Assembly (NCBI GenBank): GCA_009838525.1
Contig: VXRJ01000035.1
Location: 71,462-135,461, forward strand
DNA from: Acidobacteriota bacterium
Lineage (GTDB): Bacteria; Acidobacteriota; Vicinamibacteria; Vicinamibacterales; UBA8438
Direction of reading: 5' to 3'
DNA: 64,000 bases
Shown: positions 11,679 to 48,589 of the stretch, one piece after another
Position numbering within the stretch: the stretch's first letter is position 1
Layout: each line of letters starts with the position of its first letter
Notes under the pieces: model-generated
Databases searched by the model: none
The model's input: only the letters and a program-made list of their open reading frames with translations
What the model was told of the DNA's origin: nothing
Program-made: the position numbers and the translations under genes

Positions 11679-12629
11679 ATGCTGATAAAGAAGGCGTCCG
11701 ACATCCGCTCATCGGAGATCACCCCCGAGCACCTCTACTGGAACCGCCGCCAGTTCATCCAGACGGCTTCCGGCGCCGCACTGGGCGGCGCGGCGCTGCT
11801 CGGGCATTCCGACTCCGCGCTCCACGCGCAGGAGCCGCTGGGCGACCTCAGCCCCAGCCCATTCAGCACCGACGAGCGAAAGAACTCGTACGACGAGATC
11901 ACGAGCTACAACAACTTCTACGAGTTCGGACTCGACAAGGAAGACCCGAAGCGCTACGCCGACGAGTTGACAGTCGAGCCGTGGTCGGTCCGCGTGGAAG
12001 GGCACATGAATCGCCCGGCGGCCGACTACGCGCTGGAGGATATCCTCAGCCCGCACCCGCTGGAGGAACGGATCTACCGGTTGCGCTGTGTCGAGGCGTG
12101 GTCGATGGTGGTCCCGTGGGTCGGGTTTCCGCTGGCCGACCTCGTCAAGCGATTCGAGCCGACTTCCCGGGCCAAGTACGTCCGGTTCGAGACGCTGTAC
12201 CGCCCGGAGGAGTTCCGTGGCCAGCGCGCCCGCAACCTTGAGTACCCGTACGTCGAGGGGCTCCGGATGGACGAGGCGCTCAATCCGCTGGCGCTGATGG
12301 TGGTCGGCATCTACGGCCGCTCGCTCCTGAACCAGAACGGCGCACCGCTCCGCCTCATGGTTCCCTGGAAGTACGGTTTCAAGAGTCTCAAGTCAATCGT
12401 CAAGATCGAGTTTGTCGAGGATGAGCCGCGCAACACCTGGAACGTGGCCATCCCGCACGAGTACGGCTTCTACGCGAACGTGAACCCGGAAGTGGATCAC
12501 CCGCGCTGGTCGCAGGCGAGCGAGCGCCGGATCGGCGACTTCTTCCGGCGGCCGACCGAGATGTTCAACGGCTACGGCGAGCAGGTGGCCCACATGTACG
12601 CCGGGATGGACCTGCGGGAGAACTACTAG
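11679..12629 (+). CDS. msrP: Protein-methionine-sulfoxide reductase catalytic subunit MsrP
   Basis: Periplasmic molybdoenzyme of 316 residues that repairs oxidised methionines in exported proteins with electrons from MsrQ. A Tat signal 'NRRQFIQTASGAALGGAALL' starts near residue 22. The catalytic Cys that binds molybdenum is in 'YRLRCVEAWSMVVPW', and 'LNQNGAPLRLMVPWKYGFK' is the conserved pterin-binding stretch (seen as 'GAPLRLMVPWKYGFKS'). The length is that of the family. A GGGAGAG ribosome site lies about 9 bases before ATG 11679. The msrQ gene follows 27 bases later. moaA, needed for molybdenum cofactor synthesis, is 4.3 kb downstream, which may be coincidence. Confidence 0.95.
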   Translation: MLIKKASDIRSSEITPEHLYWNRRQFIQTASGAALGGAALLGHSDSALHAQEPLGDLSPSPFSTDERKNSYDEITSYNNFYEFGLDKEDPKRYADELTVEPWSVRVEGHMNRPAADYALEDILSPHPLEERIYRLRCVEAWSMVVPWVGFPLADLVKRFEPTSRAKYVRFETLYRPEEFRGQRARNLEYPYVEGLRMDEALNPLALMVVGIYGRSLLNQNGAPLRLMVPWKYGFKSLKSIVKIEFVEDEPRNTWNVAIPHEYGFYANVNPEVDHPRWSQASERRIGDFFRRPTEMFNGYGEQVAHMYAGMDLRENY

Positions 12630-12656
12630 CAGCCAGGAGGTCGTAGCCACTTAGCC

Positions 12657-13292
12657 ATGGCGCTGTCGTCAGCACAGTGGATACGCCGCGTCAAGCCTGC
12701 TGTTTTTCTTGTCTGCCTCGTTCCCGCGCTGCTGCTCCTCCGGGACGCCTTTACACCCGGCGGGCTGGGCGTCAACCCGATTGAGACCATCACCCATCGC
12801 ACCGGCGACTGGGCGTTGCGTTTCCTCCTGATTTCGCTCGCCGTCACTCCGGTGCGCTGGCTCACCGGCTGGCAGTTGCTCATCCGCTTCCGCCGGATGT
12901 GGGGACTGTTCGCCTTTTTCTATGCATGCCTGCACCTGTCGACGTACGTCGTCTTCGATCACTTCTTCAGCGTGACGGCGATCATCGACGATGTGATCGA
13001 GCGGAAGTACGTCACCGCCGGCATGTTCGGCTTCCTGATGCTGCTCCCGCTCGCGGTGACGTCGACGCAGGGGTGGATCCGGCGGCTCGGCCGCCGCTGG
13101 ACGACGCTGCACCGGCTTGCCTACGTCGCCGCCGCGGCGGGTGTCGTCCACTTCCTCTGGCTGGTGAAGATCTCGATCTTCGAGCCGATGATCTACGGCG
13201 TGATCCTCGCCGTGCTCCTGGGCGCGCGCGTCGCGAAACGGTACAGCTCAGGCGTTGTGGGTGCTGCCCGGGGTCTTACCCCAGGCTCGTAG
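12657..13292 (+). CDS. msrQ: MsrQ haem-binding membrane subunit
   Basis: Inner-membrane haem b protein of 211 residues that passes quinone- or flavin-derived electrons to MsrP. It shows about six hydrophobic helices, with histidines in 'THRTGDWALRFLLISLAVTP', 'FYACLHLSTYVVFDH', 'LHRLAYVAAAAGVVHFLW', the ferric-reductase-like arrangement. 'VTPVRWLTGW' and 'RRMWGLFAFFYA' are typical of MsrQ. An AGGAGG lies 16 bases before the ATG, rather far, so initiation may depend partly on translation of msrP. The end of the frame, with 'GARVAKRYSSGVVGAARG', runs into a hairpin repeat that overlaps the stop codon. Confidence 0.93.
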   Translation: MALSSAQWIRRVKPAVFLVCLVPALLLLRDAFTPGGLGVNPIETITHRTGDWALRFLLISLAVTPVRWLTGWQLLIRFRRMWGLFAFFYACLHLSTYVVFDHFFSVTAIIDDVIERKYVTAGMFGFLMLLPLAVTSTQGWIRRLGRRWTTLHRLAYVAAAAGVVHFLWLVKISIFEPMIYGVILAVLLGARVAKRYSSGVVGAARGLTPGS

Positions 13293-14710: not shown

Positions 14711-16825
14711 ATGCACAAGCCGATCAAGTACGTCGAGAAAGGGCTGTCGGTGGCGGCGAACGGGGCATGGTTCTTCTATGACCGGTTCAATGCGTTCAGC
14801 CAGCGTCCGTCGTTCACGCCGAACTGGTCCGACAAGCCGCTGCTGAAGTCGCACGAGAAGGTGAAGCCGCCCCTCGGATGGCCGCGCGAGACCGACTCGC
14901 TCTGCCCGACGTGCGTCCGCGAAGCGCGGCAGGACATCCTCGACGGAAAGAAGGACTACAAGATTCTCCTCAACGAGAAGGTGGGAGAGATCAAGGCGCA
15001 GATCGTCGAGCGCGACGGGAAGATCCTGATGGTCAAGGAGTGCCCCGTGCACGGGGTCTTCGAGGACGTGATGGCCATCGACACGGAGTTCTTCAAGCAC
15101 CTCGAGGAGTCGTTCCCGGGGAGCGACATCCGCGCCCACAACGACGCGAAACTGCACAACCACGGCAGCAGCACGATCAAGTACGGACGCGGATCGGTCC
15201 TGACGATCGACCTGACCAACCGCTGCAACATGATGTGCGATCCCTGCTTCATGGACGCGAACCAGGTCGGCTTCGTCCATGAACTGTCGTGGGACGACAT
15301 CAAGACGCTGCTCGACAACGCCATTTCCATCAAGCCGAAGCGGCAGATGTCGGTGCAGTTCTCCGGCGGCGAGCCGACCATCTCGCCCTACTTCCTCGAC
15401 GCCGTCCGCTACGCGCGGAAGGTGGGCTACAACAGCGTGCAGGCGGCGACCAACGGCATCGAGTTCGCCAAGAGCTACGATTTCGCTCGCGCGGCGGCGG
15501 ACGCCGGCCTGCGCTACGCCTACCTGCAGTTCGACGGCATCGGCAACGCCGCGAACTCGCACCGTCTCGTCGGCAACCTGTTCGACGTCAAGCTGCGGGC
15601 GATCGAGAACCTGCACAAGGCCGGCGTCGACATCGTGCCGGTCATCACGATCATCAACGGGATCAACAACGAGCAGGTGGGCCGCGTCGTGCAGTTCGCG
15701 CTCGACAACCCGAAGACCATCAGCTTCCTGTCGTTCCAGCCGGTGTCGTTCACCGGCCGCGACGAGGAGATCACCGACGAGCGCCGCAAGGCGCAGCGCT
15801 ACACGCTTTCGCACCTGGCCCACGACGTCAAGGACCAGACCGGCATCGGCGAGCCGGCGCGCGACTGGTTCCCGATCTCCTTCATGGGGACGTTCACCGA
15901 CTGGGCCGACCTGGTGCACGGTCCGGAGGAGAACTGGGGCCAGCTCAATTGCGGCTGCCACCCGAACTGCGGTGTCGGCATGGCCGTGATGATCGACAAG
16001 GAGACGAAGGAGGCGGTGCCCTTCACCAAGTTCGTCCGGGGCGAGCAGCTCGCCAAGGACATTGCCCGGGTCAACGACGCGGCCGGCGGGCGGTTCCGTT
16101 CGGTCCTCGGCATGGGGCTGGCGCTGATGCGGAACTACGACCCGTTCAATGCGCCGACCCACTTCAAGCTGGCCGACCTGCTGAAGAAGTTCGACAAGAC
16201 GTTCGGGGCGACTGGCAAGGACTATGGCAAGGTGTCGGGCGACCGGACCCAGAATGACATCGCGAAGCGCCGCGGTGATCGCTGGAACTTCCTCTTCGTG
16301 GCCGGCATGTGGTTCCAGGACTTGTTCAACTACGACTTCCGGCGCACCGAGCGCTGCATCATTCCGTACGCGACGCAGGAAGGCGAGATCTCGTTCTGCG
16401 CCTACAACACCGGCATCGGCTGGCGGAACATCATCGAGAAGATGCACATGACCGCCACGCTGACGAAGTGGTACGAGGAGCGCGGGAGGCACGAGATCTT
16501 CGCCGGCGGGAAGCACGTGCAGCTCAATACCACCGAGCACTCGCTGGTGCTCGATCCGGAGGCGGTCGCGGCCGGCGAGCAGCATGACCTCGACGATGCG
16601 GGGATCGCCAAGAACGCCCGGCAGGAAAAGCTTGCCGCCCGCGCCGCGGCCAAGGCGGCGGCGAACGGCGGCAACGGCAAGCCGGCGGATCCGCAGCAGG
16701 CGGCGCACGACGCGCAGATGGCCGCCCTCTACCGCCAGCACGTCCTGAAAGAGCAGCAGGAGCCCCTGGTCCAGATCCAGGGCCTGAAGACCGCCAAGAA
16801 GGACGAGCCGGTCAGCGTCGGCTAG
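14711..16825 (+). CDS. Radical SAM protein, Tes/Mss (MJ0619)-like superfamily
   Basis: Large radical SAM enzyme of 704 residues. An N-terminal metal-binding module has 'SLCPTCVREA' and 'KECPVHGVFEDVM', the CxxC...CPxHG arrangement found in the MJ0619/Tes group. The SAM/4Fe-4S motif is 'TNRCNMMCDPCFMDANQ' (Cx3Cx2C), then 'FSGGEPTISPYF'. Further cysteines in 'LNCGCHPNCGVGM' and 'ERCIIPY...ISFCAYN' may hold auxiliary clusters. The tail from about residue 610 is Ala/Lys/Gln-rich and probably disordered. Tes joins lipid tails carbon-to-carbon in archaea, and Mss-type relatives make membrane-spanning lipids in bacteria, some of them Acidobacteria. Function here is inferred. ATG 14711 has AAGGGTGAG upstream. 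Confidence 0.65.
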   Translation: MHKPIKYVEKGLSVAANGAWFFYDRFNAFSQRPSFTPNWSDKPLLKSHEKVKPPLGWPRETDSLCPTCVREARQDILDGKKDYKILLNEKVGEIKAQIVERDGKILMVKECPVHGVFEDVMAIDTEFFKHLEESFPGSDIRAHNDAKLHNHGSSTIKYGRGSVLTIDLTNRCNMMCDPCFMDANQVGFVHELSWDDIKTLLDNAISIKPKRQMSVQFSGGEPTISPYFLDAVRYARKVGYNSVQAATNGIEFAKSYDFARAAADAGLRYAYLQFDGIGNAANSHRLVGNLFDVKLRAIENLHKAGVDIVPVITIINGINNEQVGRVVQFALDNPKTISFLSFQPVSFTGRDEEITDERRKAQRYTLSHLAHDVKDQTGIGEPARDWFPISFMGTFTDWADLVHGPEENWGQLNCGCHPNCGVGMAVMIDKETKEAVPFTKFVRGEQLAKDIARVNDAAGGRFRSVLGMGLALMRNYDPFNAPTHFKLADLLKKFDKTFGATGKDYGKVSGDRTQNDIAKRRGDRWNFLFVAGMWFQDLFNYDFRRTERCIIPYATQEGEISFCAYNTGIGWRNIIEKMHMTATLTKWYEERGRHEIFAGGKHVQLNTTEHSLVLDPEAVAAGEQHDLDDAGIAKNARQEKLAARAAAKAAANGGNGKPADPQQAAHDAQMAALYRQHVLKEQQEPLVQIQGLKTAKKDEPVSVG

Positions 16826-27717: not shown

Positions 27718-28473
27718 ATGGCAAGGCGCACGGAACCTCCCGCTTCACCACGATCGGCGGCCCACCGGGTTCGGCAGCGGATCGAAAGGGGCAGGGAGCG
27801 TCTCTGGCGCTTCGACGATTTCCCCGGTCTCCCGCCCGCGGCGCTGGCGCAGGCACTGTCCCGTCTGGTCCGCGAGGGAAAACTGGAACGATTGAGCAAG
27901 GGCGTCTACTACCGTCCTCGGCAAACCGTTCTGGGTACGAGCCGGCCCAACCCGGCCGCCATCCGCAAGCTCGCAACTACGCGGGGCAAGCCCGTTTTCC
28001 CCGCCGGCATTGCAGCCGCGAATCTCCTGGGGTTTACAACGCAAAGCGCCGGCCGCAGTGAAGTGTCAACGAGCGGCTATCGGCTGCCCCGAAAGCTCCT
28101 GGGTAGCGATACGGTGGTCCATACCCGTCGACCCGAAGCCTGGAAGAAGCTGGCCGAAACCGACGCTGCCCTGCTCGATTTCCTGCGCCGGGCCGGAAGG
28201 TCGAGCGAACTCTCGCCCGACGACACGGTCCAGCGCACGCTGAGTCTCTGTCGCCAGGGCGGGCGCTTCCGGAGGCTCCTCGGAGTCGCGGCCAGCGAGC
28301 CGCCGCGCGTGCGTGGCATGCTCGGCGCGATCGGTGCCGAACTTGGCGAGCGGCCTACGGCCCTCAAGCAGCTGCGTGACTCACTCAACCCCCTTTCCCG
28401 GTTTGACTTCGGGATGTTGCGTGGTCTTGCTCACGCGAAGGACTGGCAGGCGAAACGGCACACGACCCTATGA
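27718..28473 (+). CDS. DUF6088 / AbiEi-type antitoxin (type IV TA), apparently without its toxin
   Basis: Protein of 251 residues. The N-terminus is a winged helix ('WRFDDFPGLPPAALAQALSR', then 'LVREGKLERLSKGVYYRP'), the DNA-binding part of AbiEi-like antitoxins. The following 'FPAGIAAANLLGFTTQ' and 'RSEVSTSGYRLPRKLLG' belong to the DUF6088 core. The C-terminal part ends 'PLSRFDFGMLRGLAHAKDW'. In intact loci an AbiEii nucleotidyltransferase toxin overlaps the 3' end; here only a start-like remnant is found. It would repress its own promoter through the palindrome just upstream. Whether the antitoxin still serves a function, for example against a related toxin elsewhere, cannot be told. Confidence 0.72.
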   Translation: MARRTEPPASPRSAAHRVRQRIERGRERLWRFDDFPGLPPAALAQALSRLVREGKLERLSKGVYYRPRQTVLGTSRPNPAAIRKLATTRGKPVFPAGIAAANLLGFTTQSAGRSEVSTSGYRLPRKLLGSDTVVHTRRPEAWKKLAETDAALLDFLRRAGRSSELSPDDTVQRTLSLCRQGGRFRRLLGVAASEPPRVRGMLGAIGAELGERPTALKQLRDSLNPLSRFDFGMLRGLAHAKDWQAKRHTTL

Positions 28474-43847: not shown

Positions 43848-44513
43848 TCATGCGCTCGCCACCGCGTGGAGGACCTTCAGCGACTTGAGGTGCTTCTCGA
43901 GGTGGTTGGTGATGAGGGTCTGGTGGGCGGAGGCCAGCTCGCGTTCGGCGGGCGGCGGTAGCGACGCCTCGTCCAATCTGGCGGGCGGCAGCTCGCGCGC
44001 GGACTGCAGGAACGCAACTGCGGCCGGTGACAGATCCAGGCCGCGCTCCGAGGGGTACACACCCTGCAGGCGGAGGAGCCAGTACTCGAAGTAGCGCGCC
44101 AGGCGTTCAACCGAGACACCGGCGGCAAGCGCCTGGACGACCGCCGCCCCGAGGCGGAACAGGCGCTCGTTCGGGTCCGCCTCGGGCGCCCACTCGTCGA
44201 TCAGCTCGGCGAAGTAGCCGACGTGCGCCAGTCCCTCCGCGCTCGGCGCGGCAAGCGGCGAGCAGACCGGCTCGACGTACCGGAGCCGCACCAGCTCGCG
44301 CTGCTCCCGTTCGAAATAGGCGACCCGTCCGAGCGTCAACGGCTCCAGCGCGCCCAGGTAGCGCGACCGCGGCCGGCGTGCGCCACGCGCCACGCCGCGG
44401 CGCTTTCCCCGGTCGGCGGTCAGGAAGACCACTATCCGATCCGTCTCGCCCAGCTTGTAGGTCCGGAGCACCAGTGCGTCCGAGGCGTGGAGCGGCATGC
44501 GGTCGTCCGGCAT
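43848..44513 (-). CDS. recO: DNA repair protein RecO
   Basis: RecFOR-pathway protein of 221 residues that helps load RecA on gapped DNA. The N-terminal OB-fold is seen in 'LHASDALVLRTYKLGETDRI', 'FLTADRGKRRGVARGARRPR' and 'RYLGALEPLTLGRVAYFERE'. The helical C-terminal part follows ('VGYFAELIDEWAPEADPNER', 'ERLARYFEYWLLRLQGVYPS'). The four-Cys zinc site present in some RecO proteins is absent. Start is ATG 44513 or ATG 44498; the conserved part begins right after the second. The gene is divergent from a PQQ-type dehydrogenase whose start is 42 bases away, and it is the only information-processing gene in this accessory stretch. Confidence 0.88.
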   Translation of the reverse strand: MPDDRMPLHASDALVLRTYKLGETDRIVVFLTADRGKRRGVARGARRPRSRYLGALEPLTLGRVAYFEREQRELVRLRYVEPVCSPLAAPSAEGLAHVGYFAELIDEWAPEADPNERLFRLGAAVVQALAAGVSVERLARYFEYWLLRLQGVYPSERGLDLSPAAVAFLQSARELPPARLDEASLPPPAERELASAHQTLITNHLEKHLKSLKVLHAVASA

Positions 44514-44555
44514 GGTAGCGTAATGGCGTCCCGAATGCCGGCAAGAGGTGCAGCG

Positions 44556-46520
44556 ATGAGCATGTGGCGACAGCGGCGGACGGCGGCGTTTGTGGCGATT
44601 ACCGCGGCGGCGGGTCTGCTGGCGACAGCGGCGCCGCTGGCGGCCCAGGTGCCCGACGGCGAATGGCACGCGTTCGGGCGGGACGGGGCCAACACGAAGT
44701 ACTCGCCGCTCGATCAGATCACGGCGGACAACTTCCTCGATCTGGAGGTGGCGTGGCGCTGGACGTCGCTCGCCCGGACGGTCGCGGAAGCGAACGACCG
44801 CATTCAGCCGAGCGGCTACAAGGGCACCCCCCTTGTCGTGGACGGGATGATCTACGCGATCACCGCCCTCGGCCAGGTGGCGGCGCTCGATGCGGGCACC
44901 GGCGAGGAGATCTGGACCTACGATCCCCGGATTTACGACCGGATGGAACGGCCTCCCAACATGGGCTGGCGTCACCGGGGCGTGGCGTACTGGAAGGATT
45001 CGGACAGCGGCGACGCGCGGATCATCTTCTCGAATCACGATTTGCGCCTGGTCGCGCTGAATGCGAAGACGGGGGAGATGTACCCCGATTTCGGCGCCGG
45101 CGGCTTCGTCGATCTCCGGGAGGGGCTGGGACGCGAGATCGACCAGACGCGGATGACCTACTCGTCCCCGGTCGCCATCGCGGGCGACACGGTGATCGTG
45201 GGCAGCATCGTGCAGGACACGTACATCACGCGGCGCGAGGCGTCGCCGGGGCACGTCCGCGCCTACGACGCCCGCACCGGCGAGATGAAGTGGATTTTCC
45301 ACACGATCCCCCAGGGAGACGAGTTCGGGGCCGACTCATGGCAGAACGAGTCGTGGCGCTACAGCGGGCACTCGAACGTCTGGTCCTACATGGCGGTCGA
45401 CGAGGAGCTGGGACTCGTGTACCTCCCCACCGGCACGCCGTCGAACGACTGGTACGGCGGGATGCGTCCCGGCGACAATCTCTTCGCCGAGAGCATCGTC
45501 GCCGTCAGTATCGAGACCGGCCAGCGCGAGTGGCACTTTCAGGCGGTCCACCACGGACTCTGGGACTGGGACTTCCCGACCGGGCCGAACCTCATCGACA
45601 TCACCGTCGACGGCCGTCCCATCAAGGCGCTCGCCCAGGTGAGCAAGCAGGCGTTCACCTACGTCTTCGACCGGGCGACCGGCGAGCCGGTCTGGCCGAT
45701 AGAGGAGCGGCCGGTGCCGCAGGGCAACGTGCCGGGAGAGTGGTATTCGCCGACGCAGCCGTTCCCGACGAAGCCGCCTCCCTTCGACCGGCAGGGGATC
45801 TCGATCGACGACGTCATCGATTTCACGCCGGAGTTGCGCGAGGAGGCGCTGAGGATCATCAACTCGCGCGCCCGCTTCGGACCCATCTTCTCGCCGCCCG
45901 TTCTGCGCGGCGCCGAGACTCCGTTCATCCAGGTGCCGGGCGCCGGGGGCGGCGCCAACTGGCAGGGTGCGGCGGTCGATCCCGAGACCGGGATGCTGTA
46001 CGTGTCGTCGTCGTCGACCCTGATCGTCGTCGAGGTGATCGCCTACGACCCGCCGGCTACCGTCGGCTACTTCACGGATCCGTGGGGCTACGGGTTGTCC
46101 GGCCCGCGGGGGTTGCCCATCTTCAAGCCGCCCTACAAGCGGGTGACGGCGATCGACCTGAACACCGGCGACCATGCCTGGCAGGTGCCTCACGGGGACG
46201 GCCCGCGCAATCACCCGGCCATCGCGCACCTGGATCCGGGTCCGCTCGGCGGCGGCGGCGGGATCAGCTCCGGGCTCCTGGTGACGCCGACGCTGCTCAT
46301 CATGAACCACGGCGCGCGGGACGTCGCGGAAGAGGCGGACAGCTCGCGCGCCATCAGCGCGTATGACAAGGCGACCGGGGAGCATCTGGGCTCGATCCCG
46401 CTCCCGTCATCGCCCGGCGCGAATCCGGTGACCTATCTCCACGACGGGAAGCAGTACCTGCTGGTCGGCGTCGGCACCGGCGGCGACGATTCGGAGCTGA
46501 TCGCACTGACCCTGCCGTAG
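44556..46520 (+). CDS. PQQ-type dehydrogenase, tandem copy A (glucose-dehydrogenase-like propeller)
   Basis: Exported propeller protein of 654 residues. Signal peptide 'AFVAITAAAGLLATAAPLAA'. Mature start '[20 protein letters not shown]'. Propeller motifs: '[16 protein letters not shown]', '[14 protein letters not shown]', '[20 protein letters not shown]', '[18 protein letters not shown]', and '[20 protein letters not shown]'. The layout is that of the soluble domain of membrane-bound glucose/quinate dehydrogenases without their N-terminal membrane anchor. GAGG lies seven bases before ATG 44556. Copy B follows 92 bases after the stop and shares a 552-bp identical tract. PQQ binding and substrate are inferred only. 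Confidence 0.82.
   Translation: MSMWRQRRTAAFVAITAAAGLLATAAPLAAQVPDGEWHAFGRDGANTKYSPLDQITADNFLDLEVAWRWTSLARTVAEANDRIQPSGYKGTPLVVDGMIYAITALGQVAALDAGTGEEIWTYDPRIYDRMERPPNMGWRHRGVAYWKDSDSGDARIIFSNHDLRLVALNAKTGEMYPDFGAGGFVDLREGLGREIDQTRMTYSSPVAIAGDTVIVGSIVQDTYITRREASPGHVRAYDARTGEMKWIFHTIPQGDEFGADSWQNESWRYSGHSNVWSYMAVDEELGLVYLPTGTPSNDWYGGMRPGDNLFAESIVAVSIETGQREWHFQAVHHGLWDWDFPTGPNLIDITVDGRPIKALAQVSKQAFTYVFDRATGEPVWPIEERPVPQGNVPGEWYSPTQPFPTKPPPFDRQGISIDDVIDFTPELREEALRIINSRARFGPIFSPPVLRGAETPFIQVPGAGGGANWQGAAVDPETGMLYVSSSSTLIVVEVIAYDPPATVGYFTDPWGYGLSGPRGLPIFKPPYKRVTAIDLNTGDHAWQVPHGDGPRNHPAIAHLDPGPLGGGGGISSGLLVTPTLLIMNHGARDVAEEADSSRAISAYDKATGEHLGSIPLPSSPGANPVTYLHDGKQYLLVGVGTGGDDSELIALTLP
45339..45890 (+). 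repeat. 552-bp perfect repeat within dehydrogenase copy A
   Basis: Identical base for base to 47408-47959 in copy B (offset 2069) by direct reading. It starts at TGGCAGAACGAG and ends at CCCATCTTC; differences appear at once on both sides. The flanking parts of the two genes differ at many positions. Confidence 0.85.
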
Positions 46521-46612
46521 CCGCCCGTACGGCGTTCGGGGTGGACGGGGCGTTACGCGCCGAGCCGCCACAACCGTTCGTTCGGATCAGGTGCCGATTG
46601 GGGAGGACAGCG

Positions 46613-48589
46613 ATGAGCAAGCGGCGACAGCGGTGTCCGGCGGCGATGGTGACGCTTGCGGCGGCGGCGGTCGTGCTGGCGGTCGCGGCGCCGGTCGCGG
46701 CGCCGGTCGCGGCCCAGGTGCCCGATGGCGAATGGCATGCTTTCGGCCGGGATGGGGCGAATACGAAGTACTCGCCGCTCGACCAGATAACCGCCGACAA
46801 CTTTCTGGACCTGGAGGTGGCGTGGCGCTGGACGTCGCTCTCCCGGGCCGTTGCGGAGGCGGACGACCGGATTCGGCCGACCGGCTACAAGGGAACGCCG
46901 CTCGTGGTGGACGGGATGATCTATGCGATCACCGCCCTCGGCCAGGTGGCGGCGCTCGATGCAGGCACCGGCGAGGAGATCTGGACCTACGACCCGCGGA
47001 TATACGACCGGATGGAACAGCCTCCCAACACGGGCTGGCGTCACCGCGGCGTGTCCTACTGGAAGGATCCCGCTAGTGACGATGCGCGGATTGTCTTCGC
47101 GAATCACGACCTCCGCCTCGTCGCGCTGAACGCGAAGACGGGGGAGATGTACCCCGACTTCGGCGCCGGCGGCTGGGTCGATCTCCGGGAGGGGCTAGGG
47201 CGCGAGATCGATCAGACGCGGATGACCTACTCGTCCCCGGTCGCCATCGCGGGCGACACCGTGATCGTCGGCAGCATCGTGCAGGACACCTTCATCAGCC
47301 GGCGCGAGGCGAACCCGGGGCATGTACGTGCTTACGACGTGCGAACCGGCGAAATGAAGTGGATATTCCACACTATCCCGCAGGGAGACGAGTTCGGTGT
47401 CGACTCGTGGCAGAACGAGTCGTGGCGCTACAGCGGGCACTCGAACGTCTGGTCCTACATGGCGGTCGACGAGGAGCTGGGACTCGTGTACCTCCCCACC
47501 GGCACGCCGTCGAACGACTGGTACGGCGGGATGCGTCCCGGCGACAATCTCTTCGCCGAGAGCATCGTCGCCGTCAGTATCGAGACCGGCCAGCGCGAGT
47601 GGCACTTTCAGGCGGTCCACCACGGACTCTGGGACTGGGACTTCCCGACCGGGCCGAACCTCATCGACATCACCGTCGACGGCCGTCCCATCAAGGCGCT
47701 CGCCCAGGTGAGCAAGCAGGCGTTCACCTACGTCTTCGACCGGGCGACCGGCGAGCCGGTCTGGCCGATAGAGGAGCGGCCGGTGCCGCAGGGCAACGTG
47801 CCGGGAGAGTGGTATTCGCCGACGCAGCCGTTCCCGACGAAGCCGCCTCCCTTCGACCGGCAGGGGATCTCGATCGACGACGTCATCGATTTCACGCCGG
47901 AGTTGCGCGAGGAGGCGCTGAGGATCATCAACTCGCGCGCCCGCTTCGGACCCATCTTCGCGCCGCCGGTGCTGCGCGGCGCCGAGACGCCGTTCATCCA
48001 GGTGCCGGGCGCCGGCGGCGGCGCGAACTGGCAGGGCGCGGCGGTCGACCCGGAAACCGGGATGCTGTACGTGTCGTCGTCGTCGACCCTGATCGTCGTC
48101 GAGGTGGTCCCGTACGACCCGCCGGCGACCATCGGCTACTTCACCGACCCGTGGGGCTACGGCTTGTCCGGCCCCCGGGGGCTGCCGCTCTTCAAGCCGC
48201 CCTACAAGCGGGTGACGGCCATCGACCTGAACACCGGCGAGCATGCCTGGCAGGTGCCGCACGGCGACGGACCGCGCAACCACCCGGCGATCGCGCACCT
48301 CGATCCGGGGCCTCTCGGCGGCGGTGGGGGGCTCAGTTCCGGCCCACTGGTGACGCCGACGCTGCTCATCATGAACCACGGTGCACGCGATGTCGTCGAG
48401 GAAGCGGACAGTTCAAATGCCATCAGCGCCTATGACAAGGCGACCGGGAGGCACCTCGGATCGGTCCCGCTGCCGACGTCGCCCGGGGCGAATCCGGTGA
48501 CCTATCTGCACGACGGGAAGCAGTACCTGCTGGTTGGCGTCGGCACCGGCGGCGACGATTCGGAGCTGGTTGCGCTGACCCTGCCCTAG
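46613..48589 (+). CDS. PQQ-type dehydrogenase, tandem copy B
   Basis: Exported propeller protein of 658 residues, tandem paralogue of copy A. Signal peptide is Ala/Val-rich ('[19 protein letters not shown]') and longer than in copy A through a small GCGCCGGTCGCG duplication. The mature protein differs from A at scattered residues (for example '[19 protein letters not shown]'), with a central stretch identical at DNA level. GGGGAGGA six bases before ATG 46613 fixes the start. Both copies keep the same propeller motifs, so both look intact. Possible roles are the same as for A; divergence outside the conserved core may reflect different substrates or simply drift between conversion events. Confidence 0.82.
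47408..47959 (+). repeat. 552-bp perfect repeat within dehydrogenase copy B
   Basis: Partner of 45339-45890. Perfect identity between diverged flanks is the mark of recent gene conversion or unequal exchange between the tandem genes. Confidence 0.85.

Follow-up and report, generated by a model that had tools for sequence, protein, structure and literature searches.

Soil temperature and pH proxies in wide use build on branched tetraethers and iso-diabolic acid, and to our knowledge a chain-coupling enzyme has not been demonstrated in Acidobacteriota in the open literature covered here. A gene in the acidobacterial window analysed (a stretch of DNA of 64,000 nucleotides) raises the question of whether such an enzyme is encoded there, as its product had originally been predicted to be a Tes/Mss-like radical SAM protein and a candidate membrane-spanning lipid synthase. 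We propose that this protein and its closer relatives, here called the long form, act as an iso-C15 tail-to-tail coupling enzyme, that is, an iso-diabolic acid synthase, and on sequence and modelled structure we give this reading a probability of about 0.7. Judged from its sequence, the enzyme very probably joins two membrane-lipid tails into one membrane-spanning chain, as in archaea, and its product may include lipids that serve as a soil-temperature record. With a clear active site, and as the predominant gene of Tes type across most genomes of the culturable Acidobacteriaceae, the long form makes the question of the coupling enzyme directly testable.

The gene is a frame of 704 codons on the forward strand (14711 to 16825; ATG at 14711, stop codon ending at 16825). 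Its assignment as a Tes-family radical SAM gene of the long form, encoding 704 aa, draws on the frame itself, the NCBIfam match, and structural and homologue evidence. An in-frame TTG further 5' (14603) was rejected as the start because homologues begin with the same M-H/P-K-P, which makes 14711 the right start. This is a real, conserved gene under selection, present in 46 of 60 related genomes, mostly as a copy that is 76-92% identical along almost its entire length, and carried by 70 of 99 genomes within the class. Codon-by-codon comparison with each of the two nearest copies gave a dN/dS of approximately 0.12-0.15; values for more distant copies are less reliable, with synonymous sites near saturation. 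Whole-genome protein comparison found one full-length copy (the self-match) in the source genome, with the adjacent moaA as the sole further match. Some Vicinamibacterales genomes (loci L083, L084, L085, and L097) contain a divergent second long-form paralogue, which is 52-62% identical and also lacks the N-terminal cluster. No relative of the protein was found on viral contigs, and plasmids yielded only remote matches (22-29% identity), chiefly to haloarchaeal and actinobacterial radical SAM proteins.

The protein is a member of the MJ0619/Tes superfamily in the broad sense. Pfam matches are to a radical SAM domain and to PF23545, the HMPTM ribbon, the latter with 53.4 bits against a cut-off of 27. 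The top NCBIfam match is tetraether lipid synthase Tes (NF045702, E 9e-93, residues 61-580), and its score of 311.4 bits lies below the curated cut-off of 450, which places the protein under the Tes equivalog threshold. Among solved structures, MJ0619 (Tes/GDGT-MAS, 7TOL) is the sole whole-length relative (E 8e-63), followed by MoaA (E 4e-5). AlphaFold modelling with 81 homologues gave a structure (mean pLDDT 75, pTM 0.81) that matched the Tes crystal structure 7TOM over 461 residues spanning residues 57-592 (Z 29.8, rmsd 3.5), and the next fold match was again MoaA (Z 16.6 over 261 residues). Model confidence is low at residues 171-189, which hold the radical-SAM motif, and at 566-599, after the C-terminal cluster, so fine geometry is not readable. 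Sequence, fold, and active-site residues all give good support to the predicted likeness to Tes, with Tes rather than an unrelated radical SAM family as the best match. The cysteine motifs quoted in the original prediction were likewise all found, namely CPTC (C65, C68), CPVHG (C111, H114), TNRCNMMCDPCF (C172, C176, C179), and CGCHPNCG (C414-C420).

Comparison with the crystallized enzyme maps the rubredoxin, radical-SAM, and C-terminal cluster sites onto the protein, but not the N-terminal cluster site. Residue numbers of MJ0619 follow PMC9433317, and the residues named in the available passages of that paper landed on the right letters. Residues 3-29 (14717 to 14797, +), outside the archaeal Tes match, form a predicted, weakly amphipathic N-terminal helix (block pLDDT 92-97). 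Across the 81 homologues, its hydrophobic moment exceeded that of shuffled sequences (median p 0.017) and no stretch of transmembrane strength was found; contact of the modelled helix with the membrane surface is possible. The rubredoxin/Zn-ribbon domain (PF23545; residues 58-122, 14882 to 15076, +) has the ligands C65, C68, C111, and H114, corresponding to MJ0619 C9, C12, C33, and H36, of which C33 and H36 were aligned and C9 and C12 were matched by motif outside the mapped fragment. Its loop has 42 residues, compared with 20 in MJ0619. Alignment to MJ0619 places a degenerated N-terminal [4Fe-4S] site at residues 147-157 (15149 to 15181, +). All four ligands are gone: C73, C77, C80, and H83, the last taken in this analysis as the 'conserved histidine' of that cluster, align with K147, H151, S154, and K157. 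As its ligands fall on these residues, the N-terminal cluster, to judge from the alignment, cannot form as it does in MJ0619.

In the 81 homologues the catalytic residues vary little or not at all. The radical-SAM cluster motif C172-x3-C176-x2-C179 (residues 172-179, 15224 to 15247, +) corresponds to MJ0619 C98, C102, and C105. Ten of the 11 reported SAM-pocket residues are identical to those of MJ0619 (F106, G145, Y195, D199, V236, T238, Q268, S271, T273, and R275); the exception is R210, which aligns with L286, with an arginine at the neighbouring position 285. In the CGCHPNCG block (residues 414-420, 15950 to 15970, +), C420 aligns with the single cysteine (C338) of the MJ0619 motif SHQHCG, and is a likely ligand of the [Fe4S4]C cluster. 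The C-terminal cluster site (residues 533-563, 16307 to 16399, +) contains M533, C549, Y553, and C563 as equivalents of the labile Met439 and of C455, Y459, and C470. C420, M533, C549, Y553, and C563 are invariant. Conservation suggests that C338, C455, and C470 are the cysteine ligands of the C-terminal cluster in MJ0619; the text of the paper, in the passages available, names only Met439. The least conserved part is a helical insert at residues 440-525 (16028 to 16285, +), a putative counterpart of the lipid-pocket helices of MJ0619 that is only 14% identical to the archaeal protein.

The original prediction had also described extra Cys-rich segments and a long low-complexity tail. The cysteine motifs are present, but to call them extra is misleading, since cluster ligands are fewer here than in MJ0619 after loss of the N-terminal [4Fe-4S] site. 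The long tail is likewise real (residues 593-704, 16487 to 16822, +) and mostly of low model confidence, but it is not merely of low complexity: it closes with a recurring LYR..VLKE..VQIQG motif, found across Vicinamibacteria and Terriglobia in the form M..LYR..VLKE....(V/L)(V/I)QI.

Two types of Tes-family protein can be distinguished in Acidobacteriota. Short bacterial Tes proteins (approximately 530-580 aa) score above the Tes cut-off, belong to the same superfamily, and mostly have C416 and C420 in common with the long form. Between the CPxHG and TNRC motifs there are 0-2 cysteines in 156/156 long forms, a set that includes a few repeat retrievals of one gene, and 3-4 in 27/27 short forms. 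The N-terminal cluster cysteines are kept in all 27 short forms and in none of the 156 long ones. A branch with a support of 100 splits long from short forms in a tree of 73 rows, where the MJ0619 branch is very long and its exact position unsure. Identity to MJ0619 is 28-35% for long forms and 37-43% for short forms. Further long-form traits are an N-terminal extension of 55 residues that includes the helix, the longer ribbon loop, and the C-terminal tail with its end motif. From sequence comparison, the long form is thus a distinct clade, recognizable by the missing N-terminal cluster and by extensions at both termini. The distinct subfamily suggested by the original prediction does exist, and the tail is one of its markers; the CGCHPNCG block is ruled out as another, as C416 and C420 also occur in most short bacterial Tes.

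Relative to archaeal Tes/GDGT-MAS (MJ0619, 7TOL/7TOM), the window protein retains the fold, the radical-SAM cluster, the rubredoxin site, the C-terminal [4Fe-4S] cluster with its labile Met, and most SAM-binding residues. It differs in its missing N-terminal cluster, an identity of 28%, a score under the Tes model cut-off, and three additions: the N-terminal extension, the enlarged ribbon loop, and a tail of approximately 110 residues at the C terminus. The bacterial Tes homologues reported by Zeng et al. in 2022 (PMC8941075), including that of Edaphobacter aggregans, very probably fall in the same long-form group. That paper pools bacterial homologues, and the passages of its main text available to us separate no form without the N-terminal cluster. 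Bacterial Tes homologues have been listed since 2022; what appears new, relative to the parts of the open literature that we cite, is the definition of a clade through its missing cluster and the finding that the long type prevails in Acidobacteriaceae.

The named loci of the long form are all from Acidobacteriota, except for a MAG with the label Acidimicrobiia and another labelled simply 'bacterium'. The copy in the former (L108) is 78% identical, and the MAG is probably mislabelled or a mixed bin. Copies in Acidipila rosea, Acidicapsa dinghuensis, and Granulicella aggregans show 72-74% identity. The nearest named relative of the window protein is from a Vicinamibacteria MAG, in a clade that includes Luteitalea and represents subdivision 6, and the acidobacterial link suggested beforehand was hence correct. 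The core long-form clade holds Acidobacteriaceae, Bryobacterales, probable Chloracidobacterium, and Vicinamibacteria. It covers subdivisions 1, 3, and 6 and probably 4, the last represented by a named Chloracidobacterium sp. MAG and by genomes read as Chloracidobacterium. A survey of 46 strains reported iso-diabolic acid in acidobacterial subdivisions 1, 3, 4, and 6 (2026 paper, PMC13274423), and members of Chloracidobacterium have it among their primary fatty acids (PMC12816986). The match between gene and lipid phenotype rests on these positive lineages only.

Iso-diabolic acid accounts for 12-30% in Edaphobacter strains and for 26% in E. aggregans (PMC11354219). E. aggregans has a single Tes homologue, with 32% identity to the M. 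acetivorans Tes used as query, according to the relevant part of PMC8941075. This gene is probably of the long type, because 32% fits the long range and not the short one, both ranges being measured against MJ0619. Of 70 Acidobacteriaceae genomes sampled, with family assigned from a tree, 65 contained a Tes-family gene and 11 contained one above the Tes cut-off; in the other 54 all Tes-family genes fell below it and were chiefly long forms. Six of the 11 genomes with a standard tes, from different genera, have a long-form gene on the same contig at a distance of 0.8-11.4 kb. This proximity is far above chance, in a comparison uncorrected for genome relatedness. Pairs approximately 1-11 kb apart were seen at L184, L185, L186, L187, L188, L062, and L063, where the other neighbours vary.

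Under the proposed mechanism, the enzyme would bind two membrane lipids, each with iso-C15 acyl (or alkyl) chains. A first SAM would remove hydrogen from the terminal methyl group of one chain, and the resulting carbon radical would be held on the C-terminal [4Fe-4S] cluster. A second SAM would then activate the other chain, and coupling of the two ends would give a 13,16-dimethyl-C28 (iso-diabolic acid) chain across the membrane. We infer the substrate, the product, and the order of steps alike. According to the passages available from PMC9433317, MJ0619 couples terminal methyl carbons, uses two SAM per bond, and proceeds via a substrate-sulfur bond to the C-terminal cluster, on which the radical is stored. 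The isopropyl end of an iso-C15 chain is the same as a phytanyl end (PMC8941075, in the part cited). Unlike archaeal Tes, the long form lacks the N-terminal [4Fe-4S] cluster, has the added helix and tail, and would use bacterial iso-fatty-acid lipids. Because a domain search of the source genome found no PlsA/Ger-type reductase domain (PF09989), the iso-diabolic product is probably ester-bound in this organism.

Retention of the radical-SAM cysteines, of 10/11 SAM-pocket residues, and of the equivalents of C338, C455, C470, Met439, and Tyr459 counts in favour of coupling. Against it count the sub-threshold Tes score, the loss of a metal site where Tes has four, the low identity of the insert, and a gene context that is housekeeping in the source genome and not conserved. 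A tentative extension, to which we give somewhat less than even odds, is that aerobic soil Acidobacteriota of subdivisions 1, 3, 4, and 6 rely on the long form as their main iso-diabolic acid synthase, a three-cofactor, oxygen-hardened Tes without the surface-exposed N-terminal cluster. Loss of this exposed cluster might make oxygen easier to tolerate, and among the members of these lineages are aerobes with a high content of iso-diabolic acid that failed to grow without oxygen (PMC11354219). If the extension holds, the long form would supply the coupling step behind the branched tetraether climate-proxy lipids, and the N-terminal cluster would be dispensable for sp3-sp3 coupling. The missing cluster offers a natural experiment on the role of Tes auxiliary clusters.

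The alternative that fares best, although we consider it rather unlikely, is that the long form alters lipid tails by radical chemistry without a tail-to-tail bond (for example by cross-linking, C5/C6 methylation, or macrocycle closure), with iso-diabolic acid coming from an Mss-type enzyme or a standard Tes. The divergence of the helical insert and the lost metal site would suit such a role, and the occurrence of the long form beside a standard tes in some Acidobacteriaceae suggests division of labour. Mss homologues were reported in 11/97 acidobacterial MAGs (PMC11868695), and genomes with the long form might also carry an Mss-type gene that accounts for their iso-diabolic acid. However, 54 of the 70 Acidobacteriaceae genomes have the long form as main type without an above-cut-off Tes, in a family with members rich in iso-diabolic acid (PMC11354219), and the C-terminal cluster with its labile Met, which is used in radical coupling, is invariant.

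The Mss-like part of the original prediction was not supported. The mss gene of Thermotoga maritima has been cloned and used in E. coli (PMC11604127), and the T. maritima genome gave no match to NF045702 at E 1e-26 and none to PF23545 at E 0.01. At 1e-12 it matches the Tes model alongside E. coli and others, a level at which MoaA-type proteins also match. Judged indirectly, from this genome search rather than the Mss sequence, Mss appears to lie outside the Tes profile family. Both enzymes are radical SAM proteins from which a similar product is expected, namely fatty-acid lipids coupled at their tails, and Mss models are reported to superpose on Tes (2026 paper, PMC13274423), but they seem to belong to different sequence families at the profile level.

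It is very improbable that the protein is a class D radical SAM methylase with a pterin or some other small polar molecule as its substrate, in line with the former annotation of MJ0619. The PF23545 match, whose name comes from the HMPTM annotation, and the moaA adjoining the gene in the window speak for it, but moaA lies near the gene in 8 of 120 homologous loci, always in opposite orientation, and PMC9433317, in the passages cited, describes the pterin activity of MJ0619 as uncorroborated and its structure as having a hydrophobic tunnel with lipids. Just as improbable is a TrsS-like maturation protein or other SPASM-type peptide maturase with no lipid role: TrsS is the second NCBIfam match (E 5e-60), but it scores 203.2 bits against a cut-off of 490, and its best stretch covers residues 93-378, whereas the Tes match and the 7TOM fold match extend over residues 61-580 and 57-592. 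Further acidobacterial matches to the Tes model carry a single TGA in frame, which fits TrsS-type selenoproteins (G240:C25:25787-26722, G201:C121:10574-11482, and G232:C336:10849-11760).

Across the 120 homologous loci no partner gene is conserved, with msrP/msrQ upstream in 10-11, moaA in 8, and hisS in 7, and for this reason we draw no operon-based inference. The largest other shared neighbour 'families' were set aside, as they look like shadow ORFs of the long-form gene itself. Upstream in the window, at 11679 to 13292, lie two msrP/msrQ-like genes, one with a molybdopterin oxidoreductase domain and one for a ferric-reductase-like membrane protein, and they recur upstream of the homologue in approximately 10 loci. 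Elsewhere in the window, positions 27718 to 28473 encode a protein of 251 residues with a weak AbiEi-type antitoxin domain, and positions 44223 to 48589 hold two tandem beta-propeller genes of the PQQ-dependent dehydrogenase type.
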